From Haloarcula halobia (lineage in GTDB: Archaea; Halobacteriota; Halobacteria; Halobacteriales; Haloarculaceae): DNA of 64,000 bases. This document shows positions 6,443-40,682 of the stretch, piece after piece. The notes beneath the pieces are model-generated. The model worked only from the letters and a program-made list of their open reading frames with translations. It ran no database searches and was not told where the DNA came from. The stretch spans positions 1,984,001 through 2,048,000 of the forward strand of contig NZ_CP119787.1 in assembly GCF_029338255.1 (NCBI RefSeq), given 5' to 3'. Numbering within the stretch: position 1 is the first letter of the stretch; every line of letters starts with the position of its first letter. The position numbers and the translations under genes are program-made.

Positions 6443-6449
6443 ATAACAA
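6443..6449 (+). promoter_or_regulatory. ATAACAA box upstream of leader ORF and GT2 gene
   Basis: It ends 24 bases before a GTG at 6474 that opens a 63-codon leader frame. This spacing fits a leaderless transcript. The real glycosyltransferase start is 217 bases downstream of the box. Confidence 0.45.
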
Positions 6450-6473
6450 TGCGACTTTCAGGGCAAGGAGAGG

Positions 6474-6665
6474 GTGGGAACGGGATGGTCGACACGGGGT
6501 CGACGTCACCGGTACCGACGCAGCATGAGATTTACTGAACGTACCCACGCACGAACCGACGACGGTCGCTCTGATGGTCACCCGCAGGACGTGTGCCTCC
6601 AGCACAGACGACGAGCGGTCGGTACGTCGACCGGGACTCGACTGTCCACCGGCGGAGGTGGCTGA
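6474..6665 (+). CDS. Candidate leader ORF coupled to GT2
   Basis: A 63-residue Arg/Thr-rich frame resembling no known protein. It opens with GTG 24 bases after an ATAACAA box and stops one base before the ATG at 6667. Its last codons contain GGAGGTG, the Shine-Dalgarno site of the next gene. Ribosomes translating this frame would end exactly at the glycosyltransferase start, so it may be a leader for translational coupling. It could also be a chance frame in a 5' untranslated region. Confidence 0.35.
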   Translation: MGTGWSTRGRRHRYRRSMRFTERTHARTDDGRSDGHPQDVCLQHRRRAVGTSTGTRLSTGGGG

Positions 6666-6666
6666 G

Positions 6667-7524
6667 ATGTACAGAGGATCCTCGGTCGGGGTCGTCATCC
6701 CCGTCTACAACGAGGCGGCGTTCATCGGCGAGGTGCTGGAGACGATACCCGGATTCGTCGACAAGGTGTTCGTTGTCGACGACAAATCGACCGACGAGAC
6801 GTGGTCTGTCATCAACGAGTACGTCGCCGAGATGCCGCTGGAGACAGACCGGGCGCTCGAGTCGACCACCGACGGAATCGCCGCCCTCACCGACGGTTCT
6901 GGGGAGGAGTTCGCGTCGCCGTCCCCGGTCGAGGGCCGCATCGTCCCGGTCAGGCACCAGACAAACAGTGGGCGAGGCGCCGCGGTCAAGACCGGCTATC
7001 GACTCGCCCTGATAAACGACCTCGACGTCGTCGCCGTCATGGACGGGGACGGACAGATGGATCCGGACATCCTCGACCGTATCATCGACCCGGTCGTCGA
7101 GGGGACCGCCGATTACGCGAAGGGGAACCGCCTGGTCTCGCTCGAGCACTGCCGGCAGATGTCCAACTGGCGGCTCTTCGGGAACACGCTGTTGAGCGTC
7201 CTCACGATGGTCGCCAGCGGCCACTGGACCATCCGAGACCCACAGAACGGCTACACGGCCATCTCCGGGAAGGCGCTGGACCGACTGTCGCTCGACGACC
7301 TCTACGACGATTACGGGTTCCTCAACGACGTCCTCATCAAGATGAACGTCCACGACTTCACCGTCGTCGACGTCCCGATGGACGCCCTGTACGGCGACGA
7401 GGAGAGCGGCATCCGCTACGGTTCCTTCGTTCCCAAGCTCTCCCTGCTCCTGTTGCGCGGCCTCATGTGGCGGCTGTGGACGAAGTACGTCGAGCGACCG
7501 AGCCGCTCTGCCACGACTGCCTGA
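6667..7524 (+). CDS. GT2 family glycosyltransferase (dolichyl-phosphate-sugar synthase-like)
   Basis: A 285-residue GT-A fold enzyme. VGVVIPVYNEAAFIGEVLE (near the N-terminus) binds the nucleotide sugar, VFVVDDKSTDET follows, and DGDGQMDPD is the metal-binding DxD region. DPQNGYTAISGKAL is typical of DPM1/DPG-type enzymes that move a sugar onto polyprenyl phosphate. There is no C-terminal membrane helix, unlike AglJ in this window. I chose the ATG at 6667 because GGAGGTG lies 6 bases upstream. It is the first enzyme of the glycan locus and may supply a lipid-linked sugar. Donor and acceptor are not visible from the sequence. Confidence 0.82.
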   Translation: MYRGSSVGVVIPVYNEAAFIGEVLETIPGFVDKVFVVDDKSTDETWSVINEYVAEMPLETDRALESTTDGIAALTDGSGEEFASPSPVEGRIVPVRHQTNSGRGAAVKTGYRLALINDLDVVAVMDGDGQMDPDILDRIIDPVVEGTADYAKGNRLVSLEHCRQMSNWRLFGNTLLSVLTMVASGHWTIRDPQNGYTAISGKALDRLSLDDLYDDYGFLNDVLIKMNVHDFTVVDVPMDALYGDEESGIRYGSFVPKLSLLLLRGLMWRLWTKYVERPSRSATTA

Positions 7525-7970
7525 AAACCACGCGGCGCGAGGCGGGGCGATTTTCGGTACCGATGGCCAGTCCAGTGAGCTGCTGCACTGGCTGGTGGCA
7601 GCTCACAGTGGTGGTCGTCATCGAGCGAGCCGTCCCAATAGAACACGAGCGGCGCCGATCGAGTTCGTTCCCGGGAGTGGATCGATGACGTGATCGAGAT
7701 CGACGACGACCGGTCGGTCCGGGCGTCTCCAGCTCGGTCCGCCCACAACGACAGGCGGTGGTGCGGAGGCGGTGATGCGGGCGTGGCGTCGTGAACCGGG
7801 ACTCATCGGTGTACTCATCGCGTCCTGCCGGTCGGCCCTTTCGCCCCCCGAGACACGTCGCCGTGGCTTCGACCGTCTGAACCTACGTCGGGCATGCTCG
7901 AGTCGGAGGTGTACAGAAATCTCTCAGAGCTCCTCTCGCACCTGGACGACTGCGGTCCCGAAAACCTTCG
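7525..7970. other. Intergenic region after GT2
   Basis: No credible gene. It contains one strong RNA hairpin candidate near its left end. Otherwise it separates two convergent transcripts (GT2 and wecB-wecC). Confidence 0.5.
7576..7605 (+). terminator. Hairpin downstream of GT2
   Basis: TGAGCTGC and GCAGCTCA form an 8-base stem with a 14-base loop, about 50 bases after the GT2 stop. No T-run follows, so its role as terminator or RNA-stability element is uncertain. Confidence 0.3.
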
Positions 7971-15562: not shown

Positions 15563-16546
15563 TCACATGGGTTCGGTGACGTCGATCGACAGCGACAGGT
15601 AGCGGTAGGCGTTGTCGGTCGTCGGATTCTCCGGTGGCGTCCCGGCGTAAACGAGGTAGACGACACGCAGGTCCTCGCCGAACAGCGTGGGCGTGACGGT
15701 GTGGTCGTAGTCCCAGGACTCGCCGCTCTCGACGCGCTGGACGTCACGGAGGAGTTCGGACCGCTCGGTGACCGCCCGTGCACCCTCGCCCTCCGCCCCG
15801 AGGCGCTGTATCTGCACCACGACGGTGTAGACTACGGCTTGCCCCTCGTTGTTCGACACGCGCAACACGAGGTCGGCCCGTCCGTCGGGGCCGAGCTCGG
15901 TGGGGTAGTTGCCTGCCACCAGCTCCCCGTCGGGTGACTCCGTCAGGAGCGACGTCTCCGTGTACTTGACACCGTCCTGGGGGGTCGTCAGCGCCACGGC
16001 GAAGGTGCTCATCGCCGCGATGACCACCACGGCCAGCCCGACGTTGAGCACGGCGTCGAGGGTGTTGCCCTGGAGCCCCCGATACCCCTCGCCCAGCCAG
16101 TACCAGAACGGTGCCTCGTAGCGTGCGTCCGCCGGCGTCCGGAGCCGTCGGATCGTGCCGCCGGCCAGGGCGGCAACGACGAACGCCGTCACCACGAGCA
16201 GGATGTTCTGTAACGTGAGAGGGAGAGCGGCGAAGGCCATGCCCATGCCGAACAGCGGGAGCAGCGCGACGCTGAGACCGAGGGAGAGAGCGGCCCGCTC
16301 GCCCTCGCCGAGGACGCCGTCGTTCAAGTTCTGCCTGAACGGGTTCGCCGTCTGCCGCCCGCGCCGTGCCGGGAACACGAGCGTCGTGAGCGCGTAGCCC
16401 GGCAGCAGACACAGGAAGACGCCGGCGAGTACCAGTCGAACGGGCGAAGGGAGCAAGAGCAACGCGACGTTGGCCACTGCGAGCAGGCCCACGATCAGCC
16501 AGACGTCCGCCAGTTGCGCGACGAGGGACCGGATGCTATCGCCCAC
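15563..16546 (-). CDS. DUF1616 membrane protein
   Basis: A 327-residue protein with several N-terminal membrane helices (LADVWLIVGLLAVANVALLL, a second ending in LCLLPGYALTTLVFPARR, two between about 95 and 150, and one near 195-215). An extracytoplasmic beta-rich C-terminal domain of about 110 residues follows. LLPGYALTTLVFP and the C-terminal layout match DUF1616, often found in archaeal surface-glycan clusters. I favour GTG at 16546, preceded by GAGGGGGG; the frame stays open to a GTG at 16618. A 36-codon leader frame overlaps the start by 11 bases. The role is unknown, perhaps glycan assembly at the membrane. Confidence 0.72.
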   Translation of the reverse strand: MGDSIRSLVAQLADVWLIVGLLAVANVALLLLPSPVRLVLAGVFLCLLPGYALTTLVFPARRGRQTANPFRQNLNDGVLGEGERAALSLGLSVALLPLFGMGMAFAALPLTLQNILLVVTAFVVAALAGGTIRRLRTPADARYEAPFWYWLGEGYRGLQGNTLDAVLNVGLAVVVIAAMSTFAVALTTPQDGVKYTETSLLTESPDGELVAGNYPTELGPDGRADLVLRVSNNEGQAVVYTVVVQIQRLGAEGEGARAVTERSELLRDVQRVESGESWDYDHTVTPTLFGEDLRVVYLVYAGTPPENPTTDNAYRYLSLSIDVTEPM

Positions 16547-16646
16547 GGTACCCCCCTCGCGCGTCGGCGTCGGAACCAGCCACGGGGCCCGACTCGTCGG
16601 TCCGCTCCGGGCCCCCACCGGCCCGCACGTAATCTACGATAGCCAT
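16536..16646 (-). CDS. Candidate leader ORF overlapping DUF1616 start
   Basis: A 36-residue frame beginning MAIVDYVRAGG, with its ATG 30 bases after an ATAACAA box. Its TAG stop falls 11 bases inside the DUF1616 gene if that gene starts at GTG 16546. The Shine-Dalgarno-like GAGGGGGG is inside the frame. The geometry matches the leader ahead of the gene at 29124. It may couple translation, or may be chance. Confidence 0.33.
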   Translation of the reverse strand: MAIVDYVRAGGGPERTDESGPVAGSDADARGGYRGR

Positions 16647-16676: not shown

Positions 16677-16683
16677 TTGTTAT
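16677..16683 (-). promoter_or_regulatory. ATAACAA box for DUF1616 transcript
   Basis: On the minus strand the context is CCATAACAAAG, the same extended core as at 28943. It lies 30 bases before the leader ATG at 16646. Confidence 0.45.
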
Positions 16684-16901
16684 GGTCGTACTATGATTCC
16701 GCACACAGGCCAGTGCGAGCGGTCGGTCGGCATCGCATCGCCCGGACGGCCTCGATCCGACATACTCGTTGCAGGTCGTCGGACGGCGCTGGAACCGTCA
16801 CCGTGTCCGCCGGACTGTCAGTCCCCGATAGCACAATAGGCGTCTCCTACTGGAGAGTAGTAGGGTCAGTACAAACCGTCCGGGGAGACATCCGATACCA
16901 A

Positions 16902-18257: not shown

Positions 18258-18295
18258 GCGGACCAATGCGACAGACGGTGCGGAACAGACGTATC

Positions 18296-18302
18296 ATAAC
18301 AA
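18296..18302 (+). promoter_or_regulatory. ATAACAA box for GT2 gene
   Basis: It ends 26 bases before the ATG at 18329 and supports that start over the in-frame ATG at 18266, which lies upstream of the box. Confidence 0.5.
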
Positions 18303-18328: not shown

Positions 18329-19291
18329 ATGGAGACCGACACCGAGTCACCGCTGGTCAGCGTCGTCATCCCGACGTACGGCCGCCCGGAGTTTCTCATC
18401 GACGCCGTCCAGAGCGTCGTCGACCAGACCTATCCCGAGGTCGAACTCGTGGTCGTCGACGACCACTCCCCCGATCCCGTCGAACCGTCTCTCGCGGACA
18501 TCCCGTTCGACGAGCTGGCCCGCGCCGAAGTCGTCCGCCACGAGGAGAACCGGGGCGGGAACGCCGCTCGCCGGACCGGCATCGAGCGGTCCAGCGGCGA
18601 GTTCGTCGCCTTCCTGGACGACGACGATCACTGGGACCCGACGCTCGTCGAGCGCGTGGTCTCGGTGTTCCAGGCGGCAGGCCCCGACGTCGGCGTCGTC
18701 ATGGCCGGGACGCGCATCGTCGACGAGGACGGTGACGAGATCGGCAGGGTCGTCCCGGACGCCGAGGGGGACGTGACCGAGGGGATTCTCCGCGGGACGG
18801 TCCGGGCGGGGTCGTTCTCCCGATTTACCGTCCGTCGGAGCGTCGTCGACGCGACGGGCCTCCCGGACGAGCGATTGCCCAGCTGGCAGGACCTAGAGTG
18901 GCACATCCGCCTCTCGGCCCGGTGTGAGTACGCGTCGCTCAGGGACGCCGTCGTCACGCGACGGGTCACCTCACACGACCAGATCACCGACGATTTCGAG
19001 GCGAAGCGAGACGTCTCTTACCCGCTCTTGCTCGAGAAACACCGACCCCTGGCCGCCGAGTTCGGTCGGGGGACCGAGCGGCGGTTCGTCGCGACGCTGA
19101 CGCTCACGCTCGGGTTCTCCGCGCTGCGAAACGGCTATTACGCGACGGCCGTCCGGACGTTCGGCCGGGCGATCAGGTACGACCCGCTCGCCCCGAAGGC
19201 GTACCTGTACCTCCTGCTGGCGCTGGGCGGGCCGTTGACGTACAAGCCGGCCAAGGGACTCCGGCGAAAACTCAAGGCCTCGATGGGCTAG
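18329..19291 (+). CDS. GT2 family glycosyltransferase
   Basis: A 320-residue GT-A enzyme with VSVVIPTYGRPEFLIDAVQS, VVVDDHSPDP, GNAARRTGIE and FLDDDDHWDP (the metal-binding DxD region). PSWQDLEWHIRLS lies near the catalytic base. The C-terminal 90 residues are helical (LRNGYYATAVRTFGRAIRYD and YLYLLLALGG) and probably associate with the membrane or partners. The start at 18329 fits the ATAACAA box 26 bases upstream. It is convergent with the asparagine-synthase-like gene. Donor sugar unknown. Confidence 0.87.
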   Translation: METDTESPLVSVVIPTYGRPEFLIDAVQSVVDQTYPEVELVVVDDHSPDPVEPSLADIPFDELARAEVVRHEENRGGNAARRTGIERSSGEFVAFLDDDDHWDPTLVERVVSVFQAAGPDVGVVMAGTRIVDEDGDEIGRVVPDAEGDVTEGILRGTVRAGSFSRFTVRRSVVDATGLPDERLPSWQDLEWHIRLSARCEYASLRDAVVTRRVTSHDQITDDFEAKRDVSYPLLLEKHRPLAAEFGRGTERRFVATLTLTLGFSALRNGYYATAVRTFGRAIRYDPLAPKAYLYLLLALGGPLTYKPAKGLRRKLKASMG

Positions 19292-19306: not shown

Positions 19307-21130
19307 TCACTCGGCCGTGCCGGCGCTGGCACCGTGTCGGGCTGGCGTTTCGCTGTCGGTCGACTTCGTATCGAGGTGCAACTGGAACCAGCGTTCGACC
19401 GTCGAGAGCGCCGCGAGCGGTCCGAGGTTGTTGGCCTCGCCGTTCCAGTGGTCCGTCCGCAGCGCCTCGATGGCGTCCGCGTCGAACACCGCTCGCTCGC
19501 AGGCGTCGTCGAGGAGACCGTCTATCAGGTCGCGCATCTCGTCGTGTTCCTCGTACCACATCTGCTGGAGCCGTCGTCCGCCGTAGGCGTTCTTGCCGAG
19601 CAGTCGCTTGGTGGCCGTGTCGGCGACGAACCCGACGACGTGGAGCCAGAGCGGTCGGCTCGGGGGCATCTTGGTCCGCTCGTAGGGGATGCCGTTCAGC
19701 CCGTAATCCAGCCGTCGCGCGAGTTCGAGCTTCCCGCGCGACGTGCCGGCCGGAATCGTCCCGCCGGTGAACGGGATCGTATCACCCCTGTACTCCAGAG
19801 GGAGCTTGCTCACGGCGTCGAGGAAGCCGCTGGTGCAGATGGGAATCCGGCTCCCGACCTGACTCCGTGCCAGCGGGTTGCTGGCGAACTCGCCGCGTGC
19901 CATGTAGTTCCGGTAGTAACAGTCGAGGGCCTTGCCGACCGAGTCCGGCGCCGTCGAGTCGGCGACGACGGACCGGTAGGTCGCCATCGGGTCGACCTCG
20001 TCGGTCAGCAGGCGTCGCACGTCGCGTCGGCTGCTCTGGTGTTTCTCCTGGTAGAGCGACTCTTCGGGGGTGTCGTAGCGCCTGAGCACGTCCTGGCTGA
20101 GGCCGCCGCCGAGCATCGTCCCCTGGCCACAGCCCTCGAGGACGACGTCGGCCGGGTCCTCGATGTTGAACACGGCGGTGAGGTTGAGGAACGTCCGCCA
20201 GGTCAGCATGCCGCTGGTGAGTGTGACCGCCTCGTCGAAGACGTCCACGAACCGGTCGGGCGTGAGCGGGACCTCCTCGTTCCTGGCGCCCAGGCGCTCG
20301 GAGATCTGGCGCGCAATACGCCTGTTGCCCCCGTCCGAGGGGTTGGCGTTGTAGGTGTAGGTGGTGATGGTGTCGAAGTGTTCGCACAGCGCGCCGGCGA
20401 GGGTCCGGCTGTCGAGGCCGCCCGACAGCCAGAGGCCGATTGACCCGTCCATGGTGGCGGACGTGTCCGCGACGGCCTGCCGGTACGCCTCGACGATGGG
20501 ACTCATGGGGTCGTCCTGCGGACCGGTCTCGAACTCGAACTGCCAGTACTGGCGGACGTCACGGCTCCCACCCTCGTACTCGAGGACGGAGGCCGCGGGG
20601 AGCGCCGAGATCTCCTCGATGAGGGTCTTCTCGCCCCACACCTGTCCGATGAGCAGCATGTCGCTGAGGCCCTGGACGTCGATGGTCGGCCCGTCTACCG
20701 CCGCGAGCGGTGTCGCGAGGTTCGAACCGAACGCGAACGGGCCCTCGCTGGTGTAGAAGCACTGTCGCGTCCCGAGCTTGTCCGTCCCGACGACCAGTCG
20801 GTCGGCGTCCCGGTCGAGCGCGACGAGCAGGAACGGCCCGTCGAGTGCAGCCAGCGTCTCGTCGGGCCGTGAGAGCACCGCCTCGAAGAGGTCCTCGCTG
20901 GAGAATTCGAGGGCCTCGAGGTTCGTGATGGCCCCGTAGACGACGCCTGCGCGGTGCTGGTCGTGCCACGTGCGACCGCCGCCGGGGTCTCTCTGTCCGT
21001 GGTGGACGAGCGCGACGCCCAGGTCGGCGAAGTCGACGGCGTCGACCTCGTACCACGATTCCTCGTGCATCGGCTCGAGGAGGGACTCGAGCGGCGTCGA
21101 ACGTGTCACCCCGCCGGCGACGCCGGTCAT
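19307..21130 (-). CDS. Asparagine synthase-like amidotransferase lacking the glutaminase Cys
   Basis: A 607-residue AsnB-family protein. The N-terminal half resembles the class II glutamine amidotransferase domain (GPFLLVALDRDADRLVVG and KLGTRQCFY) but does not begin Met-Cys, so the catalytic Cys2 is missing. The C-terminal domain has the ATP-pyrophosphatase loop SIGLWLSGGLDSRTLAG near residue 235. Glutamine hydrolysis is unlikely; it may use ammonia or activate another carboxylate, perhaps amidating a uronic acid such as ManNAcA. That substrate is inference. I chose ATG 21130 because a 43-codon upstream frame ends there with an ATGA overlap; an in-frame start at 21184 is possible. Confidence 0.8.
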   Translation of the reverse strand: MTGVAGGVTRSTPLESLLEPMHEESWYEVDAVDFADLGVALVHHGQRDPGGGRTWHDQHRAGVVYGAITNLEALEFSSEDLFEAVLSRPDETLAALDGPFLLVALDRDADRLVVGTDKLGTRQCFYTSEGPFAFGSNLATPLAAVDGPTIDVQGLSDMLLIGQVWGEKTLIEEISALPAASVLEYEGGSRDVRQYWQFEFETGPQDDPMSPIVEAYRQAVADTSATMDGSIGLWLSGGLDSRTLAGALCEHFDTITTYTYNANPSDGGNRRIARQISERLGARNEEVPLTPDRFVDVFDEAVTLTSGMLTWRTFLNLTAVFNIEDPADVVLEGCGQGTMLGGGLSQDVLRRYDTPEESLYQEKHQSSRRDVRRLLTDEVDPMATYRSVVADSTAPDSVGKALDCYYRNYMARGEFASNPLARSQVGSRIPICTSGFLDAVSKLPLEYRGDTIPFTGGTIPAGTSRGKLELARRLDYGLNGIPYERTKMPPSRPLWLHVVGFVADTATKRLLGKNAYGGRRLQQMWYEEHDEMRDLIDGLLDDACERAVFDADAIEALRTDHWNGEANNLGPLAALSTVERWFQLHLDTKSTDSETPARHGASAGTAE

Positions 21131-21258
21131 CGGTCGCTCACCGTCCAGCAGTGACTCGCCGGGGACACGGCCGACGGACGCCACCGCGTCGTTGGCGCGT
21201 CGGGCTGTGGTACCGTCGGGGCAAGCAGTATCGGTAGTAACGTCCGTCGTCGTATCAT
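21127..21258 (-). CDS. Candidate leader ORF ahead of asnB-like gene
   Basis: A 43-residue frame starting MIRRRTLLPILLAP whose TGA overlaps the downstream ATG as ATGA. The nearest ATAACAA box on this strand is 76 bases before its start, longer than in the other cases. This makes it the least regular member of the leader-frame series. Confidence 0.25.
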   Translation of the reverse strand: MIRRRTLLPILLAPTVPQPDAPTTRWRPSAVSPASHCWTVSDR

Positions 21259-21334: not shown

Positions 21335-21341
21335 TTGTTAT
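21335..21341 (-). promoter_or_regulatory. ATAACAA box upstream of asnB-like gene
   Basis: On the minus strand it reads CGATAACAATGCC. No start codon lies at 24-30 bases, so a longer 5' leader is implied. Confidence 0.35.
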
Positions 21342-21389
21342 CGGTAGACTAAACCGCCACACCGTCGGTCTCGGGGGTGTATCGAGACA

Positions 21390-21396
21390 ATAACAA
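21390..21396 (+). promoter_or_regulatory. ATAACAA box for DACRYD phosphatase-superfamily gene
   Basis: It ends 25 bases before the ATG at 21422. It faces away from the minus-strand box at 21335-21341, so the two form a divergent promoter pair. Confidence 0.5.
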
Positions 21397-21421: not shown

Positions 21422-22330
21422 ATGTACGATTTGCAGCAATTGCTACGCGGGATTGCCAACCCTGGCCTGGCCGTCCGTGAGGTGAACCGCCTCTATCACA
21501 CCCGGCTGGGTCGCCAGAACGGGAATCCCCGCGGCATCGACGTCTTCGAGGAGGACTGGGACAACCTCCTCATCCTCGACGCGTGCCGGTACGACATGTT
21601 CGAGGAACAACACTCTCTCCCCGGCACTCTCGAGTCCCGGATCTCGAAGAGCTCTCACACCAGCGAGTTCCTGCAATCGAACTTCGCCGACCGCGACCTC
21701 CGGGACACCGTCTACGTCACGGCGAGTCCGATGTACTACCGCAACAGGGACCGCCTGAACGCCCGACTGCACGACGTCGTCAACGTCTGGCAGGACTTCG
21801 GGTGGCACGAGGAGTACCGGACGGTGCTGCCCGAGACGGTCCGCGAGTTCGCGATCGACGCCGCCGAGACGTACCCGGACAAGCGACTCGTCGTCCACTT
21901 CCTCCAGCCCCACTACCCCTTCATCGGGCCGACCGGCCGGCATCACTTCGACCTCGACCAGCTGAACTTCGAGTGGGACAGCGCACTGACTGGCGATCTT
22001 GGCATCTCCGACGAGGTGCTGTGGGCGGCCTTCCGCGAGAACCTCGACGTGGCGCTGCCACACGTCGAGGCGCTCATGACCGAGTTACGGGGCAGGACGG
22101 TCGTGACGGCGGACCACGGGCAGATGATCGGGGACCGCTCCGCACCGCTGCCGGTGACCGACTACGGACACCCGCCGGGGCTGTACACCGAACAGCTGGT
22201 GAAGGTCCCGTGGTTGATCTACGAGAACGGGCCGCGCAGGGAGATCACCGCCGACGCGGCTGCCAGCGAGGACGCCGACGTCAGCGAGGAGGCGGTCCAG
22301 GACCGCCTCGCGGACCTCGGATACCTCTGA
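21422..22330 (+). CDS. Alkaline-phosphatase-superfamily protein, DACRYD type
   Basis: A 302-residue cytoplasmic protein. NLLILDACRYDMF holds the first metal-binding Asp where classic members have DSxRxD. SKSSHTSEFL is the likely nucleophile region (Ser/Thr). HFLQPHYPF and TADHGQMIGD supply further metal ligands, and KVPWLIYENG fits the core end. There is no signal peptide and no C-x-P-x-R formylglycine motif, so it is not a classical sulfatase. It could be a phosphotransferase or phosphodiesterase acting on glycan intermediates. It ends DRLADLGYL, a tail shared by six proteins in this window. A close paralogue lies at 31466. A leaderless promoter box precedes it. Confidence 0.78.
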   Translation: MYDLQQLLRGIANPGLAVREVNRLYHTRLGRQNGNPRGIDVFEEDWDNLLILDACRYDMFEEQHSLPGTLESRISKSSHTSEFLQSNFADRDLRDTVYVTASPMYYRNRDRLNARLHDVVNVWQDFGWHEEYRTVLPETVREFAIDAAETYPDKRLVVHFLQPHYPFIGPTGRHHFDLDQLNFEWDSALTGDLGISDEVLWAAFRENLDVALPHVEALMTELRGRTVVTADHGQMIGDRSAPLPVTDYGHPPGLYTEQLVKVPWLIYENGPRREITADAAASEDADVSEEAVQDRLADLGYL

Positions 22331-26804: not shown

Positions 26805-28313
26805 TCAGGCCTTGATACTCGTGATCACGGTCTGGACGTTCTGCCGGACGCCCCAGTTGAACTGGGTCTCGAGGACGATGACCGCGGCGCCGTAGACGAC
26901 GACGCCCAGCACGATGAGAAGCGGGAGTTCGAAGACCGGGCGCAGGTCCAGCATCGAGGCAGTGTACCAGCCGACGGCGGCCATCGTGCCGCTCGCGGCG
27001 AGCGGGTAGAACAGCTCGCGGAGCACCTGCGTGAAGGTGCCGTCGATGGCCTTGACGGTCAGGTACATGTCCATCGGCATCATCGGGAAGATGAAGATGC
27101 CGGTCACCACGAGGGCCGTGCCGACGATACCGTATGCCTCGGTCGCCGGCCAGATGAATATGGCGAGCAGCACCACGCGGATGAAGCTCAGCTTGGTGAT
27201 GTAGTCCGGCCGGCCGATGGCCTTCCAGAGTGGACCGAAGGTCTTCGAGACGGCCCGGAGGAGGCCGAAGATGGCCAGAACCTGCATCACGGGGATCATC
27301 CGCTCCCACTCGGGACCCAGGAACACCTGGACGAAGCTCGGGGCGATTATCATGATGCCCATCGCGGCCGGGAACGAGACGAACGCGGTGACCCGAAGCG
27401 TCTGCAAGTACCCCTCACGGAGTTTGCTGGTGTCTTCCTTGAGCTTCGAGAGCGCCGGGAACATCACGCTCGAGACGACCTGGGCGATCTCGGTCGCCGG
27501 GGCGTTCGAGAACTGGTACGCGTACTGGTAGAAGCCGAGTGCGGCAGGGGTCAGCAACCAGCCGATGAACGCGTCGTCGCCCTCGCTGTACAGCCAGTAC
27601 AGGATCGACGAGGCGGTGAGCCACTTCCCGTAGTCGATGAGTTCGCCCGCCTTCGACCGGTCGAACGAGGGCCACGGGCGGTAGTCGTGGAGGACGTACG
27701 ACAGCACGAGCTTCATCACGTCGCCGCTGACGAACCCGAAGATGAACGCCCAGGCCGTCGGTTCGTAGAGCGCGTAGCCGACGGCGACGGCCAGCTGGAG
27801 GATCTGTCCCGACAGGTAGTAGACGAACCGCTTGTGGAAATCGAGGTTCTTCGAGAAGTACACCACGCCCGGGTTCTGGAGGCCAAGGACGAGCGGCGAC
27901 AGCCCGATGACACGGACCATGTCCGCTGCACGCGGGGTACCGAAGAACTGTGCGATGAACGGTGCGGCGGCGAACAGCACGGTGAAGATGATCACACCGC
28001 GGGCGATCTCGAGGAGCCACGTCGTGTTGAGATAGCTGTCGACGTTCGAGTCGACCTGCTGAATCAGCTGGGAGTTCAGCCCCATCTTGGTGAACTTCCG
28101 GACCCCGCTCAGCGTCAGCAGTGCGATACCCATCAGTCCCACCTCGGAGGGGCCGATGAGGCGCGCGAGGACGATGAGCATGACAAGCTGCAGCGCCCGG
28201 CCGAACGCGTTCTGGCCGGCCATCCAGATGCCGCTCTTGACGGCGCGCTCGGCGACACCGCCGCTGGGAATCAGGCGGTCGATGAGGTTTCTGACCTTCG
28301 AACGGAGGCTCAT
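26805..28313 (-). CDS. Polysaccharide flippase (Wzx/MOP-type exporter)
   Basis: A 502-residue polytopic membrane protein with about 12-14 helices. The N-terminus (KSGIWMAGQNAFGRALQLVM and VLARLIGPSEVGLMGIALL) is characteristic of oligosaccharide flippases that move lipid-linked glycans across the membrane. It lies in the middle of the glycan locus, so it is the likely exporter of this locus's product. I chose ATG 28313, which follows GGAGGG and sits one base after the stop of a 71-codon leader frame. Upstream starts in the same frame (28430) lack such support. Confidence 0.9.
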   Translation of the reverse strand: MSLRSKVRNLIDRLIPSGGVAERAVKSGIWMAGQNAFGRALQLVMLIVLARLIGPSEVGLMGIALLTLSGVRKFTKMGLNSQLIQQVDSNVDSYLNTTWLLEIARGVIIFTVLFAAAPFIAQFFGTPRAADMVRVIGLSPLVLGLQNPGVVYFSKNLDFHKRFVYYLSGQILQLAVAVGYALYEPTAWAFIFGFVSGDVMKLVLSYVLHDYRPWPSFDRSKAGELIDYGKWLTASSILYWLYSEGDDAFIGWLLTPAALGFYQYAYQFSNAPATEIAQVVSSVMFPALSKLKEDTSKLREGYLQTLRVTAFVSFPAAMGIMIIAPSFVQVFLGPEWERMIPVMQVLAIFGLLRAVSKTFGPLWKAIGRPDYITKLSFIRVVLLAIFIWPATEAYGIVGTALVVTGIFIFPMMPMDMYLTVKAIDGTFTQVLRELFYPLAASGTMAAVGWYTASMLDLRPVFELPLLIVLGVVVYGAAVIVLETQFNWGVRQNVQTVITSIKA

Positions 28314-28314: not shown

Positions 28315-28530
28315 TCAGTCCCTCCCCGGAGCGGGGCCCGTTCCCGGCGAGAGCCGGTCGGCCGGGCGGCGGCCGGCAGCGACACCCGTCGACGACCGAT
28401 ACCGAACACCGGCGACGGACTGGGACACACACCAGTTCGCGTGCGTCAACGACCCGTTCGCCGGGCGACCCTGCGAGCGGGTCGCCGGAGGACAGGCAGA
28501 CGACCCGCTCGGTCTGGGGTTTGCTTCCAT
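28315..28530 (-). CDS. Candidate leader ORF coupled to flippase
   Basis: A 71-residue Ser/Pro/Arg-rich frame with no family resemblance. Its ATG is 28 bases after an ATAACAA box and its TGA stops one base before the flippase ATG. The flippase Shine-Dalgarno GGAGGG lies in its last codons. The arrangement matches that at 6474-6667. Confidence 0.37.
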   Translation of the reverse strand: MEANPRPSGSSACPPATRSQGRPANGSLTHANWCVSQSVAGVRYRSSTGVAAGRRPADRLSPGTGPAPGRD

Positions 28531-28558: not shown

Positions 28559-28565
28559 TTGTTAT
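28559..28565 (-). promoter_or_regulatory. ATAACAA box for flippase transcript
   Basis: It lies 28 bases before the leader ATG at 28530. Its extended context nearly equals that of the divergent box at 28943-28949. Confidence 0.5.
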
Positions 28566-28942
28566 GGTCGGGATAATGGAGTCACAGACCGGTGTGGCAA
28601 CCGGCATCCGGTCGCCCTCCCGGGAAACTGGGGTCCCAGCGCTCCGACTGGTCCCGCCACAGGCCCGCTGTCGTCGGCGCTGACACGTTCCACGGTCACC
28701 CGGTCCCCGAAAGCGCCGATTACCGTCCCTCGACGGCGCGGCAGGACCCTGCCGGCGGCTCGGGCGTTCGCCACCGCCGCTGTGGATGATGGGTCAGGGA
28801 CCGCCGACGGTCGACGAAACTCACCGAACGGGTCGATTCCGGCCGCTGACGGGCTCTGCTTCCGGTCCCCGTCCCGACGATGTGCCACAACACCGGTCGG
28901 ACGGGGCAGCTGTCCGACAGGTTCTGCAGGGACAGGCCGGCC

Positions 28943-28949
28943 ATAACAA
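28943..28949 (+). promoter_or_regulatory. ATAACAA box for DUF354-toroid-phosphatase operon
   Basis: It lies 35 bases before the leader ATG at 28985, slightly longer than the usual spacing. The context is CCATAACAAAGCCC. Confidence 0.45.
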
Positions 28950-28984: not shown

Positions 28985-29134
28985 ATGAGAGCGAACAGGC
29001 ACGACGGAAGCCGAGAACGTCGGGTAGAGCGCGTCCCAGTCAGACCGCCGTGCGTCGCAGAGTCGGCGGCCCGAAGCGGTGTGAGCGGCCGGGCCGGCCG
29101 GAGGCCGGCCGGTGGAGGTGCACATGGCGACTGA
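28985..29134 (+). CDS. Candidate leader ORF overlapping DUF354-like gene
   Basis: A 49-residue Arg-rich frame, MRANRHDGSRERRV and onward. Its TGA lies 11 bases inside the next gene, and GGAGGTG, the Shine-Dalgarno of that gene, is inside this frame. The 11-base overlap equals that proposed for the DUF1616 leader. Confidence 0.37.
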   Translation: MRANRHDGSRERRVERVPVRPPCVAESAARSGVSGRAGRRPAGGGAHGD

Positions 29135-30209
29135 GGCGAGCGTCGGGTCGTCCGTCCCCCGGGAGTCCCACACGTGGGTTGACCTCGTGAGTCCCTCCCA
29201 CCCGTTTTTCTTCCGTGCACTGGTCGACGGCCTCGACCCGATGGCGACGACGGTGACTGTCCGCAAGAAGACGGAGACGGTCCCACTCGCCCGGGAGGTC
29301 GGGTTCGACGTCCGGACGGTGGGCCGTGACTTCGACAACCCGACGGTCCGCAAACTCGGGATTCCGCTCCGGACGGCACAGCTGAGCCTCCGGGCGCCTG
29401 ACGCTGACGTCGCGCTCTGTTCGCGAAACGCAATGTGCATCCTCGCGGCGAAGGCGCGTGGCATCCCTTCCATCCACTTCACCGACAACGACATCACGGC
29501 CCACGTCGACGGCCTCCGGGCCGAGGAACTGTACAACCGCCTCGAGGCGATGGCGACGCACAACGTGGTGCCCGCCGCGTTCGACACCTGGGAACTCAAG
29601 CGGTGGGGGGCCAGCAGCGGGTCGATTCACACCTACGACGGCCTCAAGGAACACGTCTACGTCGCTGACTTCGAACCGAATCCGCAGTTCCTCGAGAAAC
29701 TCCCGTTCGACGAGTACGTCGTGGTCCGTCCCGAGGCGATGACCGCGGCCTACGTCGACGTCGACCAGTCTATCGTCCCGCGACTGCTGGCCGAGGTGGT
29801 CGACCGTGGCTACAACGTGGTTTACCTGCCCCGCTCGCGCGGTGACGAGACGTACGCGGACGCCTTCGCCGACGACAGGGTGTACACGCCGCCGAACGCG
29901 CTGAACGGCCTGGACCTGGCCTGGCACGCCCGGTGTGTCATGACCGGGTCGGGGACGATGGCCCGCGAGGCGGCCTGTATGGAGACGCCCGCGGTGTCGT
30001 TCTTCCCGAACTCGCTGCTCTCGGTCGACCAGCAGCTGGTCGACGAGGGCAAGGTGTTCCACTCGCGGGACGTGCCCGACATCGGCGAGTACCTCACGGG
30101 CCTCGACGCCGCCGACGCCGAGCCGAGTCGAGAGCGCGCCCGGACGGTCCGAGACGACGTCGTCTCGCTCACCCAGAGTCTCATCGACGACCTGGAGGGT
30201 GATCGATGA
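29124..30209 (+). CDS. DUF354-like GT-B fold protein (putative glycosyltransferase)
   Basis: A 361-residue protein resembling DUF354, a family with a GT-B-like fold related to UDP-GlcNAc 2-epimerase. VDLVSPSHPFFFRALVDGL and a Rossmann-like N-terminal half are followed by FTDNDITAHVDGL, YVVVRPEAMTAAYVDVDQS and VMTGSGTMAREAACMETPAV, the last resembling the nucleotide-binding end of these proteins. The ATG at 29124 follows GGAGGTG; a GTG at 29112 is an alternative. Its stop overlaps the next start (ATGA), making the first gene of a three-gene operon. The family is common in archaeal glycan clusters; catalysis is unproven. Confidence 0.78.
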   Translation: MATEASVGSSVPRESHTWVDLVSPSHPFFFRALVDGLDPMATTVTVRKKTETVPLAREVGFDVRTVGRDFDNPTVRKLGIPLRTAQLSLRAPDADVALCSRNAMCILAAKARGIPSIHFTDNDITAHVDGLRAEELYNRLEAMATHNVVPAAFDTWELKRWGASSGSIHTYDGLKEHVYVADFEPNPQFLEKLPFDEYVVVRPEAMTAAYVDVDQSIVPRLLAEVVDRGYNVVYLPRSRGDETYADAFADDRVYTPPNALNGLDLAWHARCVMTGSGTMAREAACMETPAVSFFPNSLLSVDQQLVDEGKVFHSRDVPDIGEYLTGLDAADAEPSRERARTVRDDVVSLTQSLIDDLEGDR

Positions 30210-32443: not shown

Positions 32444-32496
32444 CCGCGTCGACACGGCGTCGGGGATCGACCCGGTGTCGGGGCGTTATTCTGACG

Positions 32497-32503
32497 ATAA
32501 CTA
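32497..32503 (+). promoter_or_regulatory. ATAACTA box for GT-C-like gene
   Basis: A variant of the ATAACAA element. It ends 28 bases before the ATG at 32532, which opens a three-codon frame overlapping the gene start. Confidence 0.35.
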
Positions 32504-32531: not shown

Positions 32532-32543
32532 ATGGCATCATGA
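32532..32543 (+). CDS. Minimal leader ORF (Met-Ala-Ser-stop)
   Basis: ATG-GCA-TCA-TGA stands 28 bases after an ATAACTA box, and its TGA overlaps the ATG at 32540. If the transcript is leaderless, ribosomes would start here and terminate on the real start codon. It is the shortest member of the leader-frame series and could be coincidental. Confidence 0.28.
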   Translation: MAS

Positions 32544-34342
32544 ATGTGAGTGGGAACCGTCCGTCCAACCGGCGGGTGTACGCGCTCAAAGCCGCCCTGA
32601 TAGTCGGGTTCGGAGCGCTCGCTTTCGCCTTCATCACCGCGCACACCAGTCCCACCACCGGGTACGAGGTGTCGATATACACGGACACCCCACTGGCCTA
32701 CTGGGTCGCCCTCTCGATTGCGCTCCTCATTGCGATCGGCGTGGCCATCGTGGCCTACGACAACCGACTGGGGACGCTCGCACTCCTGCTCGCCGCCCTC
32801 GGCGTGCTGAGCGTCTTCGCGCTCCCGATCATCCGTGGCTACCTGTTTTACGGTCACGGTGACTCGCTCCACCACCTCGGCTGGGCGCGCGACATCGCCG
32901 GCGGGATGCTCGCCCCACAGGAGATGATCTACCCCGGGTTCCACATGATCTCGGTGTTCCTCTCGGCCTTGGGGGGTGTTGCGATGACGCAGTCGATGCT
33001 GTACGTGACGCTCCTGGTGAAACTGCTGTTTGTCGTGTTCATCCCGCTGGCCCTCTACATGCTGTACTCGAACCGGAAGGCGATCTTCATCGGTGTGTTC
33101 TCCGGGTTCCTGATGCTGCCGATAAACCACATCAGTACCCACGAGAGCTTCCACACCTTCTCGATGACGATTCTGTTCACTGCGTTCATCTACTACCTGC
33201 TGTTCGCGCACGTCACGAAGAAACACGTCGACGAGGCTCTGCCGCGGTTCCTGTCGCCGACGGGGCTCGTCCTCCCCGTCGCCCTCGTGGCGGTCGTCTT
33301 CTTGCACCCCCAGGCCGCGTTCAACGTGTTGCTCCTGTTTGGGACCATCACGCTGGTGCAGTTCGTCTACCGGCGCCGCTCCAAGGAGCACGCCGTCTCC
33401 CAGATGCGGGGCATCTACGGCCAGTTCGTCCTGCTTGCCGTCGTGTTCGCGCTCTGGGCCGGGCAGTTCGAGAACACGTACCGCGTCCTCGACCTGATGA
33501 TAACCGGCGTCCAGGAGACCATCACCGGCAACGAGGAGGCCGGGCAGGTCGTCCAGCAGCACGGCGATTCGACGACTGCGGTCGGTGCAAGCCTCGCCGA
33601 GATATTCGTGAAGCTGTTCGGCGTGAGCACCGTCTACTCGCTGCTCGCGGGCGGCCTGGTCCTCAGCGTGCTCTCCTCGCGCTTCCAGGCCCGGTCGGAG
33701 AAGACCGACGGCGTCGTCATCTACTTCGCGTACGGCGGCCTCGTGCTCATCCCGTTCCTGGGCGTCCACTTCCTGGGCGACATCGACGCCTACCTCTTCA
33801 GGCAGGTGGGATTCGGGATGGTGCTGGTGACTATCCTCGGCGCCATCGCGCTCTTCCACATCGCCTCGACCCCACTACGTCGCGACCTGCGGCCAGTCCT
33901 GGGCGTCGCGACGGTGGTCGTCCTCGCGGCCGGGCTGCTCGTCGCGTTCTCGTCGCCGTTCATCCTCCTGCCGAACGCGCAGGTGACCGAGACGGAGATG
34001 AACGGGTACGACACACTGCTCGAGAACCAGGACAAGGAGGTGCGCATCTTCGGCGGGGTGCGGATGGGCGCCGGGCGCTTCATCAACGCCCTCCAGTACA
34101 GCGAGGAGGGGCGCGACCGCGGCCCGGAGGTGTTCAATGAGACGGTGTTCAACGAGGGGGTGACGGGGGTCTACGACAGTGACAAGTATCTCGTCATCAG
34201 TCAGTACGACCGGACCCGCGACATCGAGGTGTACAACGGCTTCCGGTACTCCGAGGCGGGCTTCGAGCGGATAGGGACCACCGACAGCGTCCATCGCGTC
34301 CAGTCGAACGGCGACGTGAACGTCTACTACATCGACGAGTGA
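32540..34342 (+). CDS. Polytopic membrane protein, probable GT-C-type glycosyltransferase
   Basis: A 600-residue protein with about 11-13 membrane helices over the first 480 residues and a soluble outward C-terminal domain of about 120 residues. HGDSLHHLGWARDI in the first long loop contains an acidic/His pair of the kind used by GT-C enzymes that transfer sugars from polyprenyl phosphate on the outer face. YPGFHMISVFL and HISTHESFHTF follow in later loops. The family is not one I can name with certainty. It follows the DACRYD operon and may add the final sugar or ligate the exported glycan. Confidence 0.65.
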   Translation: MNVSGNRPSNRRVYALKAALIVGFGALAFAFITAHTSPTTGYEVSIYTDTPLAYWVALSIALLIAIGVAIVAYDNRLGTLALLLAALGVLSVFALPIIRGYLFYGHGDSLHHLGWARDIAGGMLAPQEMIYPGFHMISVFLSALGGVAMTQSMLYVTLLVKLLFVVFIPLALYMLYSNRKAIFIGVFSGFLMLPINHISTHESFHTFSMTILFTAFIYYLLFAHVTKKHVDEALPRFLSPTGLVLPVALVAVVFLHPQAAFNVLLLFGTITLVQFVYRRRSKEHAVSQMRGIYGQFVLLAVVFALWAGQFENTYRVLDLMITGVQETITGNEEAGQVVQQHGDSTTAVGASLAEIFVKLFGVSTVYSLLAGGLVLSVLSSRFQARSEKTDGVVIYFAYGGLVLIPFLGVHFLGDIDAYLFRQVGFGMVLVTILGAIALFHIASTPLRRDLRPVLGVATVVVLAAGLLVAFSSPFILLPNAQVTETEMNGYDTLLENQDKEVRIFGGVRMGAGRFINALQYSEEGRDRGPEVFNETVFNEGVTGVYDSDKYLVISQYDRTRDIEVYNGFRYSEAGFERIGTTDSVHRVQSNGDVNVYYIDE

Positions 34343-34474: not shown

Positions 34475-36010
34475 GTGAAGCGACGCGACTTTCTCACTAC
34501 GAGTGTTACACTCGCCGGGGCGGGGGTGCTGGCCGGCTGTTCGTCCCTGCTGTCGGACGACGACGGGGAGACAGAGCCGACGCCCTCGAATCGGACCGAG
34601 GAGCCACCCACCAGTGAGACCAAGACGCCCGAGCCCTCCGATTCGCTGAACCCGCGTCACGGAATCTCTTTCGAGACGGTGGTCCACGCAGTCAAAGACC
34701 TCGGGATGGACCCGAATGGCAAGAAGCCCATCGACGACCAACTGCTCGCCAGCTTCAAGCAGGGGAACGTCCTCATCACGTTCCCGCCGGGAACCTACCG
34801 CTTCGAGACCGAACCGCCGGCCGAACCGGTCACCAACTGGGGCGTGCTCGGCCTCGGCAAGAAACCCCGCGACGTGCGCTTCGTCACGACGCCCGGCAAG
34901 GGCCGGCGGTTCGTGAACTCCGACGGCGGCAGCGGCCAGCTCGTCGAGAACGTGGCGTTCGACTACAGCCAGTCGAGGGAAGGAAGCCTCGGCCTGGTCA
35001 TGCGGGCCAACGACAAGGTCCACGTCCAGGACGTCGAGTTCATCGGCTTCAACCCGGTCGTCGACGATGGGGCCATCGACAACGTGGTGCCGATGGCCCT
35101 GAAGCCCGACGGCACGGCGGTCGTCGACGGACTGGTCCGAACCGGCCCCACCGAAATCGTCTCCCACGGCCACAAAGACGACAACGCGAACGCGGGCTGT
35201 ATCTGGCTCGGCCAACGGCACGTCGGCGACCTGCACATCCGGAACTGCCACATCTCGAACACGGGCACCAACGCGATCTACGCCTCCCGGACCCGGGGTT
35301 CCGTCCGCATCTCCGACTGCCTCTTCGAGAACAACAACCAGACCAGCCTGCGCATCGGCGGCGAGGGGGCGCTCGTGGAGAACAGCCGGTTCGTCATCGA
35401 CGCCGAGAACCTGCATCCGGACAGTCGCGGCTCGCTCATCAACCCCAACGGCATCATCTGGGAGACGGGCAAGCTCGGGAAGTCTGGCGGGCGCATCGAG
35501 AACTGCGAGTTCATCGTCAGGAACACGCCACAGCGGACGAAGGCAGCCGTGTGGGCCGACGGGTCGGCCGGTGCCTTCGAGGTCGTCGGGTGCCGGTTCG
35601 AAATCGACGCCAACGGCGTCCAGGCGCTGAAGATCGACGACCCGCGGGACCCTCGCCTCGGCGTCACGGCGGACCGCCCGTGGGACGTGACGATACGCGA
35701 CATCGTCGCGATGGGCAACTCCTTCGGCAGACCCGTCATCGAGATCAACGGACGGCCCGGGTCGCTCATCGACGGCGGGTGCATCCTCTGGAACCAGTTC
35801 CGCGACGCCATCCTCATCAACGACTCCGACAACACCACGATTCGAAACCTCAACATCGACGTCCAGGGGGCAGATATCACGAACATCGCCTCGACGGTCG
35901 ACGTCCAGGAGTTGACCAGTATCAGCGAGTGTACCGACCTGCCCATCGAAGCCTCACAGCAGGGGAGCCGTGGGAACGTCTCGGTCGGTGACGGTGATAC
36001 CTCGACGTAG
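34475..36010 (+). CDS. Tat lipoprotein with pectate-lyase-like beta-helix
   Basis: A 511-residue paralogue of the beta-helix part of the protein at 22429. KRRDFLTTSVTLAGAGVLAGC is a twin-arginine signal ending in a lipobox Cys, so it is anchored on the outer membrane face. The helix starts GISFETVVHAVKDLGMDPNG and shares WLGQRHVGDLHIRNC, GTNAIYASRTRGS and CLFENNNQTSLRIGG with the paralogue. The C-terminal repeat and fibronectin-like domains are absent. It starts at GTG; an ATAACCTT box lies 27 bases upstream. It may bind, trim or shape the exported polysaccharide; no lyase catalytic residues are evident. Confidence 0.83.
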   Translation: MKRRDFLTTSVTLAGAGVLAGCSSLLSDDDGETEPTPSNRTEEPPTSETKTPEPSDSLNPRHGISFETVVHAVKDLGMDPNGKKPIDDQLLASFKQGNVLITFPPGTYRFETEPPAEPVTNWGVLGLGKKPRDVRFVTTPGKGRRFVNSDGGSGQLVENVAFDYSQSREGSLGLVMRANDKVHVQDVEFIGFNPVVDDGAIDNVVPMALKPDGTAVVDGLVRTGPTEIVSHGHKDDNANAGCIWLGQRHVGDLHIRNCHISNTGTNAIYASRTRGSVRISDCLFENNNQTSLRIGGEGALVENSRFVIDAENLHPDSRGSLINPNGIIWETGKLGKSGGRIENCEFIVRNTPQRTKAAVWADGSAGAFEVVGCRFEIDANGVQALKIDDPRDPRLGVTADRPWDVTIRDIVAMGNSFGRPVIEINGRPGSLIDGGCILWNQFRDAILINDSDNTTIRNLNIDVQGADITNIASTVDVQELTSISECTDLPIEASQQGSRGNVSVGDGDTST

Positions 36011-36058
36011 GCCGGAACTCGTGGCCGGAGTAGAATCCTCAGCGACGGCCCGGTTCCG

Positions 36059-36787: not shown

Positions 36788-36834
36788 GGGCTGGATACCA
36801 GCAGCCCGATATAAAGTATACGTCCGCTTACGAC

Positions 36835-37695: not shown

Positions 37696-37753
37696 CGTTT
37701 CGTCGAGTCCCCCAGGCAGGAACTGATACCGGTGGCTAAGCCAGTACGAGGTA

Positions 37754-37760
37754 TTGTTAT
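37754..37760 (-). promoter_or_regulatory. ATAACAA box for BKACE gene
   Basis: On the minus strand it reads TAATAACAATACC, 58 bases before the ATG. No start codon lies at the leaderless spacing, so a leader of about 30 bases is expected. Confidence 0.38.
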
Positions 37761-37799
37761 TAGGTGCGTATCCGCCGGCGCGCGGTCCTCGACGGCGCG

Positions 37800-39118: not shown

Positions 39119-39143
39119 GTCCCCCGCTCGGGTGACACGCTTC

Positions 39144-39518
39144 TCAGACGCAGGCTGCCGCGTGATTGATAAAGAGCATCGTGTTGAGCACCGTAGCGGT
39201 CAGTTGTGGGATTGTAAACCCCACGAGTGCCGCGAGCGTGTATCTCACCGGGAGCCGCTCGACGACGCCGTAGAGGACGACCAGGGCACCCCCCTTCAGC
39301 AGTATCAGCCCTAGCCCGCCCATCCGTTCGATCGCCCACGCGGCCACCGGGTTCGCCTCCACGAAACAGAGCTGGAGGCCCACGAGTGTGAGGACGGTGT
39401 CTGCCGTGGCCGTCCCGAGCACCAGGGCCCAGAGTCCCCGTTCGAGGGACGAGACCAATCCCACGGACGGCCGAACGTAGAACCAGCCGACGTTCACTGA
39501 CCCTCGCTGGTCGGACAT
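39144..39518 (-). CDS. Small membrane protein, DUF5658-like
   Basis: A 124-residue protein with three to four membrane helices. DTVLTLVGLQLCFVEANPVA and the following Gly-rich helix (MGGLGLILLKGGALVVLYG) match the pattern of DUF5658, a small integral membrane family frequent in haloarchaea. I chose ATG 39518 (MSDQRGS); an upstream in-frame start at 39539 is possible. Function unknown. Confidence 0.68.
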   Translation of the reverse strand: MSDQRGSVNVGWFYVRPSVGLVSSLERGLWALVLGTATADTVLTLVGLQLCFVEANPVAAWAIERMGGLGLILLKGGALVVLYGVVERLPVRYTLAALVGFTIPQLTATVLNTMLFINHAAACV

Positions 39519-39635
39519 ACACGTATGTCGACATGACACTACAAGGTAACGAGCTCAGTACCGACGGAATCAAACCGTAACTTTGGATTACCGACGTTCT
39601 ACCGGGCGAGGAGCACAGGTGGGCAGGATAGGGCG

Positions 39636-39923
39636 TTAACTGCGGGTGATGACCACGGACCGGTCGCCGGCGACCTCGGCCGTGTACCCGTCGATGGAGA
39701 AGGTGATGCGAAAGTCTTCGTCGGTGCTCTGCGCGACCAGTTTGTTCAGCGCGTCCGTGTCGATGCTGTCGGCCAGCGGGCCGACGTCCAGCGGGCTACA
39801 CCCCTCTATTTCCGCGAGCAGTCCGGCGATAGTCTGCGTCGCGGGTCGTTCGTTCGTGATGTAACTCCGGTACGTGTCGTGCTCGCTGTCGATTCGCTCT
39901 GAGTCGGGCTTGGTTTCGGCCAT
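39636..39923 (-). CDS. HalOD1 output-domain protein
   Basis: A 95-residue protein whose C-terminal 70 residues are a HalOD1 domain: SIDTDALNKLVAQSTDEDF, then strands ending in RSVVITRS. It is related to the protein at 3833-4114. A TATATAAT box (about 39970) stands roughly 46 bases before the ATG, leaving a short leader. A signalling role is assumed only from the domain's name and its co-occurrence with sensors in other haloarchaeal proteins. Confidence 0.8.
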   Translation of the reverse strand: MAETKPDSERIDSEHDTYRSYITNERPATQTIAGLLAEIEGCSPLDVGPLADSIDTDALNKLVAQSTDEDFRITFSIDGYTAEVAGDRSVVITRS

Positions 39924-40018
39924 GATGCTAAACTACTGGGTCCGCCAGTACTGGAGAGTAGTGTCTGTGGATATATAATCTTTGAGTAACCTGATACTGA
40001 GTGGATAGTATCCGGCTG

Positions 40019-40606
40019 CTACCGCGAGGGCGTGTTCTCGTCCGCGGTGCGTCGACGGCCACGCGTTGGGAGGCCCGGATGCCCGTCCCGCAGCCACAGG
40101 ACCAGCGCCGTCCCCAGCAACAGCGCCTCGAACACGACGTAGACGGCCCCGGCACTGCCGGTCAGCTCGCCGGCGAAGTACGTCAGCAGCTCGAGCGTCC
40201 GGCCGAGCACCGTCACCGGTTCAGACTCGGGCGCGGGGACGATCGGCCAGAGGAGGAACCGGTAGGCCACGTCGCCACCCAGCAGCGCGGGGTAGGCCAT
40301 GTCCCCCGGGAGGTGCAACAGGTAGCCGACGCCGAACGCTTCCCCGACGTCCCGTCTGCCGAGGTGTCGCGCGACCAGATACCCGACGACAACCACCGGC
40401 ACGACGAAAAAAAGGGAGTGGCCGAGCGACCGCCCGCCGGGCAGCACACCGAGCCCCCATCCCAGCAGTTTGTCGACGAGGTCCGGCAGCTGGGTCCCCA
40501 CCGCGAGGGTGACGGCCGCCGACGTCCCGACGCCCCGGCCGCCGCGTGCTCGCTGGAGAAGCGAGAACGCGATGTACCCAACGGCGAGATGTTCCCACGG
40601 CCACAT
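40019..40606 (-). CDS. YdjM/DUF457-like membrane-bound metal-dependent hydrolase
   Basis: A 195-residue membrane protein with about five helices. HLAVGYIAFSLLQRARGG, GTQLPDLVDKLLGWGL and GRSLGHSLFFVVPVVVVGYL contain the His and Asp residues conserved in the YdjM/DUF457 family. A few members are annotated as metal-dependent hydrolases; activity is rarely tested. The ATG shares one base with the stop of a 14-codon leader frame (TGATG). Function in this context unknown. Confidence 0.75.
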   Translation of the reverse strand: MWPWEHLAVGYIAFSLLQRARGGRGVGTSAAVTLAVGTQLPDLVDKLLGWGLGVLPGGRSLGHSLFFVVPVVVVGYLVARHLGRRDVGEAFGVGYLLHLPGDMAYPALLGGDVAYRFLLWPIVPAPESEPVTVLGRTLELLTYFAGELTGSAGAVYVVFEALLLGTALVLWLRDGHPGLPTRGRRRTADENTPSR

Positions 40607-40650
40607 CAGGCGATCACGTCCCCTCGTGACGACCGTCCTGGCTCGTTCAC
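40606..40650 (-). CDS. Candidate 14-codon leader ORF ahead of YdjM-like gene
   Basis: GTG opens MNEPGRSSRGDVIA 25 bases after an ATAACAA box, and its TGA shares a base with the next ATG (TGATG). No other start lies between box and gene. This is one of the cleanest members of the leader-frame series because box, start, stop and downstream start all fit. Confidence 0.42.
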   Translation of the reverse strand: MNEPGRSSRGDVIA

Positions 40651-40675
40651 AGGCCTGCTACTACCGAGTCGACAG

Positions 40676-40682
40676 TTGTTAT
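40676..40682 (-). promoter_or_regulatory. ATAACAA box for YdjM-like transcript
   Basis: On the minus strand it reads CTATAACAACT, ending 25 bases before the GTG at 40650. Confidence 0.45.

Follow-up and report, generated by a model that had tools for sequence, protein, structure and literature searches.

Leaderless 'coupled' small ORFs have been described in mycobacteria from transcriptome and ribosome profiling data (PMC4633059, PLoS Genet 2015). In Haloferax volcanii, most transcripts are leaderless, and Shine-Dalgarno (SD) sequences, which are frequent inside frames, did not drive initiation when located in a 5'-UTR (PMC3986360). Coupling was strict in 13 of 14 overlapping gene pairs tested in H. 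volcanii and E. coli and occurs by termination-reinitiation (PMC6728339). It requires an overlap or a very short distance between the genes and is strongly distance-dependent (PMC10666635), and for E. coli pairs the last 15 nt of the upstream gene are enough to bring it about (PMC6728339, PMC10666635). A list of uORFs in long 5'-UTRs of H. volcanii (PMC4983044, Table 2) has as its first entry one of 15 codons, located in the mapped 5'-UTR of HVO_2055 (agl15), a gene described there as a probable low-salt glycan biosynthesis flippase. Here we describe short frames that end on glycan genes of Haloarcula halobia and compare them with these systems.

Short frames end on the starts of glycan genes

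The window, the whole stretch of 64,000 nucleotides analysed, lies on the chromosome of a 3.48 Mb genome and contains glycosyltransferases, nucleotide-sugar enzymes, a polysaccharide flippase, and DUF354, DUF1616 and YdjM-like genes. An earlier note on this DNA had pointed to six short frames, each opening behind an ATAAC box and stopping at the start of a glycan gene, and every start, stop and gap or overlap that it gave was found in the sequence. Its spacing of 24–35 bases between box and frame is correct when measured from the box end and corresponds to 31–42 bases from the first A of the box. Gene starts were checked independently with our own gene caller, which uses codon usage plus an SD bonus. 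The caller selected the same positions as the earlier note for GT2 (6667), flippase (28313), DUF354 (29124), DUF1616 (16546), YdjM (40606) and asnB (21130); for the GT-C-like gene it selected 32576, and 32540 was adopted from the earlier note. The six cases are listed below with their conservation in a related genome, G013 (∼90% DNA identity).

28559-28575, minus strand: promoter-like motif TA-N8-ATAACAA of the flippase, conserved in G013
28315-28530, minus strand: flippase leader, 71 codons; ATG at +35 from the box, stop 1 nt before the flippase ATG
26805-28313, minus strand: polysaccharide flippase (Polysacc_synt_3, PF13440)
16677-16693, minus strand: promoter-like motif TA-N8-ATAACAA of DUF1616, conserved in G013
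16536-16646, minus strand: DUF1616 leader, 36 codons; ATG at +37, 11-nt overlap with the GTG start of the gene
15563-16546, minus strand: DUF1616 gene (PF07760)
40676-40692, minus strand: promoter-like motif TA-N8-ATAACAA of YdjM
40606-40650, minus strand: YdjM leader, 14 codons; GTG at +32, TGATG junction
40019-40606, minus strand: YdjM-like membrane protein gene (PF04307)
28933-28949, plus strand: DUF354 box CA-N8-ATAACAA
28985-29134, plus strand: DUF354 leader, 49 codons; ATG at +42, 11-nt overlap with the gene ATG
29124-30209, plus strand: DUF354 gene (PF04007)
6433-6449, plus strand: GT2 box AA-N8-ATAACAA, the weakest match to the motif
6474-6665, plus strand: GT2 leader, 63 codons; GTG at +31, stop 1 nt before the gene ATG
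6667-7524, plus strand: glycosyltransferase family 2 gene, GGAGGTG upstream
32487-32503, plus strand: GT-C variant box TA-N8-ATAACTA, conserved in G013
32532-32543, plus strand: GT-C leader, three codons (MAS*); ATGA junction to 32540
32540-34342, plus strand: GT-C-like gene; label and start codon from the earlier note, no Pfam match

Two other gene groups of the window were recorded. Three DUF7344 genes (1604-2224, 2792-3337 and 41000-41533) flank the glycan cluster, and a DUF7344 gene of another genome (L189) has the same box and a 10-codon leader; a search of the published literature for DUF7344 found nothing relevant, and the genes are possibly regulators. Of two beta-helix genes (24122-24813 and 34670-35361), each aligns with the G013 counterpart of the other one, inverted and with ∼74% DNA identity; they look like inverted paralogues.

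A bipartite promoter-like motif built around the box

The ATAAC box lies at the centre of a longer motif, TA-N8-ATAACAA. Outside gene interiors the window has ten ATAACAA sites if the one at 18296, upstream of a revised gene start at 18329, is included; exactly eight bases upstream there is a TA in seven of them and a CA in two. In the genome, ATAACAAW is about as frequent (43 sites) as its reversed control (38 sites), and but nine of the 34 chromosomal sites fall in a 37 kb part of the window, a clustering beyond what chance would give. TA-N8-ATAACAA sites are also clustered in ∼40 kb of a genome from another family of the order (G048). This second dense cluster spans G048:C1:1913912-1952416 (L164-L166), and several of its sites apparently drive glycan-type genes directly. 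On the 129 kb contig C2 of the home genome (G000), four ATAACAAW sites repeat ∼75.6 kb apart in identical surroundings (L125-L128, L130-L133), probably owing either to a large duplication or to a plasmid of which the assembly contains more than one copy.

The same box sets the gene's own start directly in many cases, at about +31 to +39. Two examples lie in the window.

21380-21396, plus strand: TA-N8-ATAACAA, directly leaderless, no leader; ATG of 21422-22330 at +32
18286-18302, plus strand: CA-N8-ATAACAA, directly leaderless; ATG of a GT2 gene (18329) at +33, gene caller chose 18266

Among 78 box sites from other genomes, 25 have a long coding frame beginning at +28 to +46, mostly at +32 to +37, nine were scored as leaders in contact with a gene, 26 open short frames without contact, and 18 have no start. 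Among the genes behind the box in other genomes are those for glycosyltransferases, oxidoreductases, a flippase and DUF354; elsewhere in the home genome, beyond the window, an AAA ATPase gene and one for a copper-binding protein are among them, and the box is therefore not exclusive to glycan genes. It is concentrated in the glycan cluster without being strictly a glycan signal, since it also directly precedes genes of other kinds. The position and spacing of TA-N8-ATAACAA suggest a promoter, with ATAACAA at the position of the TATA element; a search of the published literature for the box sequence found nothing relevant.

Leader frames are retained while their peptides drift

Coupling between leader and gene, as the earlier note proposed it, should be accompanied by conservation of the contact in close relatives, and in G013 the leaders retain start, stop and contact. 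Six leaders (asnB frame included, GT-C leader not; 819 nt) differ from their G013 counterparts by 94 substitutions and, by blastn, three indel events. All three events are in the flippase leader, which has the same length in G013, and mafft alignments place none inside any leader; the asnB frame is also without indels in G013. The other non-coding DNA of the cluster has 20.5 indels per kb relative to G013, but they are unevenly distributed and several non-leader segments are likewise indel-free, so that this comparison alone is suggestive only.

Synonymous and nonsynonymous counts between the G000 and G013 leaders are as expected at random. Ten Haloarcula-type flippase leaders of equal length have accumulated 113 inferred changes, distributed 39/41/33 over codon positions 1/2/3, and contain no in-frame stops, as compared with 12 and 15 stops in the other frames. 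The missing stops are a modest signal on their own (P = 0.037 for the ten flippase leaders and 0.10 for the G013 comparison). Leaders before homologous genes have little or no peptide sequence in common. Because the arrangement is kept while the peptide varies freely, the frame apparently exists to carry ribosomes to the gene. The earlier note's proposal of leader-peptide-coupled control is thereby divided. Box, start, open frame and contact are kept across genera, and we infer, with good support, that leader and gene are coupled; control by a specific peptide, which would be expected to leave a codon-position or synonymous bias, is not supported by these alignments.

A nascent peptide or its codons might nevertheless respond to a signal and regulate the glycan gene by attenuation or stalling. 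The position of the frames at the putative transcript start resembles that of leader peptides, and most Haloarcula-type flippase leaders begin with MQAQQY. However, constraint on amino acids is absent in both comparisons, homologous genes are preceded by unrelated peptides of differing length, and a search of the window against Rfam families gave no match at gathering thresholds. We regard regulation by the leader peptide as unlikely.

It is also quite unlikely that these regions are 5'-UTRs with conserved DNA or RNA signals (promoter, SD), in which the gene is initiated from its own SD and the frame is open only incidentally. The stretch from box to start is the best conserved part of the leader regions, and an SD-like stretch lies immediately upstream of several genes, both of which such a 5'-UTR would explain. 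It predicts neither the stop-start contact nor length changes that preserve the frame (33 and 32 versus 37 codons), and in H. volcanii initiation was found not to be driven by an SD in the 5'-UTR (PMC3986360).

Stop-start contact recurs in homologues selected by the box

The earlier note had cautioned that open frames are frequent and that some contacts may be due to chance. Rates were determined in the window and in 300 kb sampled across the chromosome. Free upstream DNA is present at 44 genes of the window, and 16 of them show stop-start contact, compared with 15.8 after shuffling; the corresponding values in the sample are 49 of 190 and 48.7. Of random upstream ATGs, 15.6% touch the gene start, and of GTGs 10.6% do so. 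The caution was justified: contact occurs at the shuffled rate, and geometry alone is therefore no evidence.

Homologues of the flippase, YdjM and DUF1616 genes were accordingly chosen by the exact box alone, and contact was scored for a leader start at +30 to +46 and a junction between a 4-nt gap and a 14-nt overlap. In 41 of the 43, a start codon 30–46 bases downstream opens a short frame that ends at the gene start (flippase 25/27, YdjM 9/9, DUF1616 7/7; one DUF1616 locus, L073, relies on a strand assigned by us). All 23 non-redundant leaders are in contact, as compared with 11.3 expected from shuffles that keep length and hence phase. If the loci were independent, P would be about 1.5e-12; this value is a guide, since the loci are partly related by descent and the limits were fixed after the first cases had been seen. 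Many of the per-locus shuffle probabilities are high for short leaders, phase being kept.

Named flippase loci from many genera illustrate the pattern. The exact box with TA is present in 27 of 80, and 25 of these have a contacting leader, of 11–71 codons; the other two have no start codon within the scanned range. In one set of 21 boxed flippase homologues, leaders of 16 to 71 codons all stop at the flippase start. Within the Haloarcula group the flippase leaders have 37, 33 or 32 codons, and in one species a one-base deletion has produced a 38-codon leader whose new stop still contacts the flippase. The nine YdjM leaders have 12–14 codons (one has 27), and DUF1616 homologues L059, L069 and L074-L076 have leaders of 21–29 codons with a 4-nt overlap. 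This overlap is the commonest junction, found in most flippase and DUF1616 homologues; overlaps of 1, 7 or 11 nt and gaps of 1–4 nt also occur and include most of the window cases. The distance from box to leader start is mostly 31–37 bases. The recurrence across homologues makes the case for a leader strong for the flippase, DUF1616 and YdjM genes.

Related motifs were read by eye at flippases that lack the exact box. In Haloferax (L257-L261, L264, L268, L269), frames of up to 28 codons reach the gene start behind TA-N8-ATAATTA in place of ATAACAA, and L225-L233 have TA-N8-ATTACAT upstream.

That GC-rich DNA yields many open upstream frames, some of which end on gene starts by chance, would account for the overall agreement with shuffled sequence and for the frequent contacts of random upstream ATGs. 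It does not account for contact in 41 of 43 box-selected homologues with divergent leaders or for the retention of the frames. As a general explanation chance is highly unlikely, and already so for flippase, YdjM and DUF1616; it may apply to asnB and in part to GT2, DUF354 and GT-C. Least probable of all is that the leaders are functional small proteins, for although the frames remain open in relatives, their substitutions are random in pattern and no peptide is common to them.

Support for the remaining leaders

For DUF354, GT2 (box without TA) and GT-C (variant box, three codons), support is moderate and comes mainly from G013. The DUF354 leader is retained there without indels, and the GT2 leader differs by seven substitutions, no indels and no new stops. 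More distant DUF354 homologues have no leader; one (L310) is directly leaderless, whereas the window copy has a leader. GT-C-like homologues were found in 42 of 60 genomes searched. Both arrangements occur among those with a box: in most, the gene's own start is at +33 to +44, whereas L386 and L389 have leaders of 14 and 29 codons with ATGA junctions. The mixture of direct and leader forms suits a leader that would act as an adaptor for genes not located at the transcript start. The GT-C-like gene of G013 (G013:C1:395734-397531) aligns as two overlapping pieces with a TGA inside, suggesting a frameshift or a broken gene.

The asnB frame, put forward earlier as a looser seventh case, was rejected as a member because of its box spacing. 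There is no ATG or GTG at +28 to +46 from the box at 21341, and the ATG of the frame is at +83.

21127-21258, minus strand: asnB 'leader' frame, not counted as a member; start at +83 from the box

Discussion

We consider it probable that the leader serves to load ribosomes, whatever peptide it encodes, with entry at its 5' end and termination-reinitiation as its link to the gene. The TA-N8-ATAACAA promoter would start transcripts ∼31–35 bases downstream, at a start codon or slightly ahead of it; in some genes this codon is the gene's own and in others it opens a short leader frame. Ribosomes would load at the 5' end, with no 5'-UTR or a very short one, and after translating the disposable leader would initiate again on the gene, aided in several cases by an SD-like stretch within the leader. 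The only requirement on the leader would be that it stay open until it ends on the gene start. The transcription start, translation of the leader and reinitiation are predictions from sequence. A leader that is entered at its 5' end and ends on the gene would join the failure of SD sequences in 5'-UTRs with coupling at overlaps.

A wider proposal is more tentative. The promoter may specify the mode of translation in haloarchaea, the TA-N8-ATAACAA class and its peptide-independent leaders turning an unusable 5'-UTR SD into a usable intragenic one and setting surface-glycan expression across several families. The loader model, if correct, would explain how genes far from the transcription start are translated where the 5'-UTR SD has been found inactive, and it would connect the surface-glycan genes of many haloarchaea with one specific promoter motif. 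For annotation, it serves as a warning that short frames that look unconserved can matter.

The leaders share several properties with known systems. Neither the conserved peptide nor the regulatory codons of a leader-peptide attenuator were found among the window and homologue leaders compared. Stop and start overlap or lie a few nt apart, as in termination-reinitiation. The overlapping H. volcanii pairs (PMC6728339, PMC10666635) have the ATGA and TGATG junctions and the reinitiation step in common with the leaders proposed here; those pairs are native genes, whereas the haloarchaeal leaders would be disposable upstream partners at the presumed transcript start. For the H. volcanii uORFs, the excerpted text of PMC4983044 describes no coupling or box, unlike the leaders here, and the 15-codon agl15 uORF was not matched to frames before the other Haloferax flippases examined.

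The nearest known case is that of the mycobacterial coupled small ORFs (PMC4633059). In both, a short frame that is leaderless (here by prediction) overlaps the gene through an RTGA-type stop/start junction, found here in most flippase and DUF1616 homologues, and the linkage is kept during divergence of the peptide: in one example in the mycobacterial paper, the peptide is unconserved and leaderless initiation and coupled linkage are retained. The haloarchaeal leaders differ in being archaeal, in recurring before the same gene families across genera, in being associated with one promoter motif, and in being predicted from sequence only. If the prediction is correct, the mycobacterial arrangement has a parallel in another domain of life. 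With so similar a class already described in mycobacteria, the haloarchaeal leaders are best described as its archaeal, promoter-linked variant.
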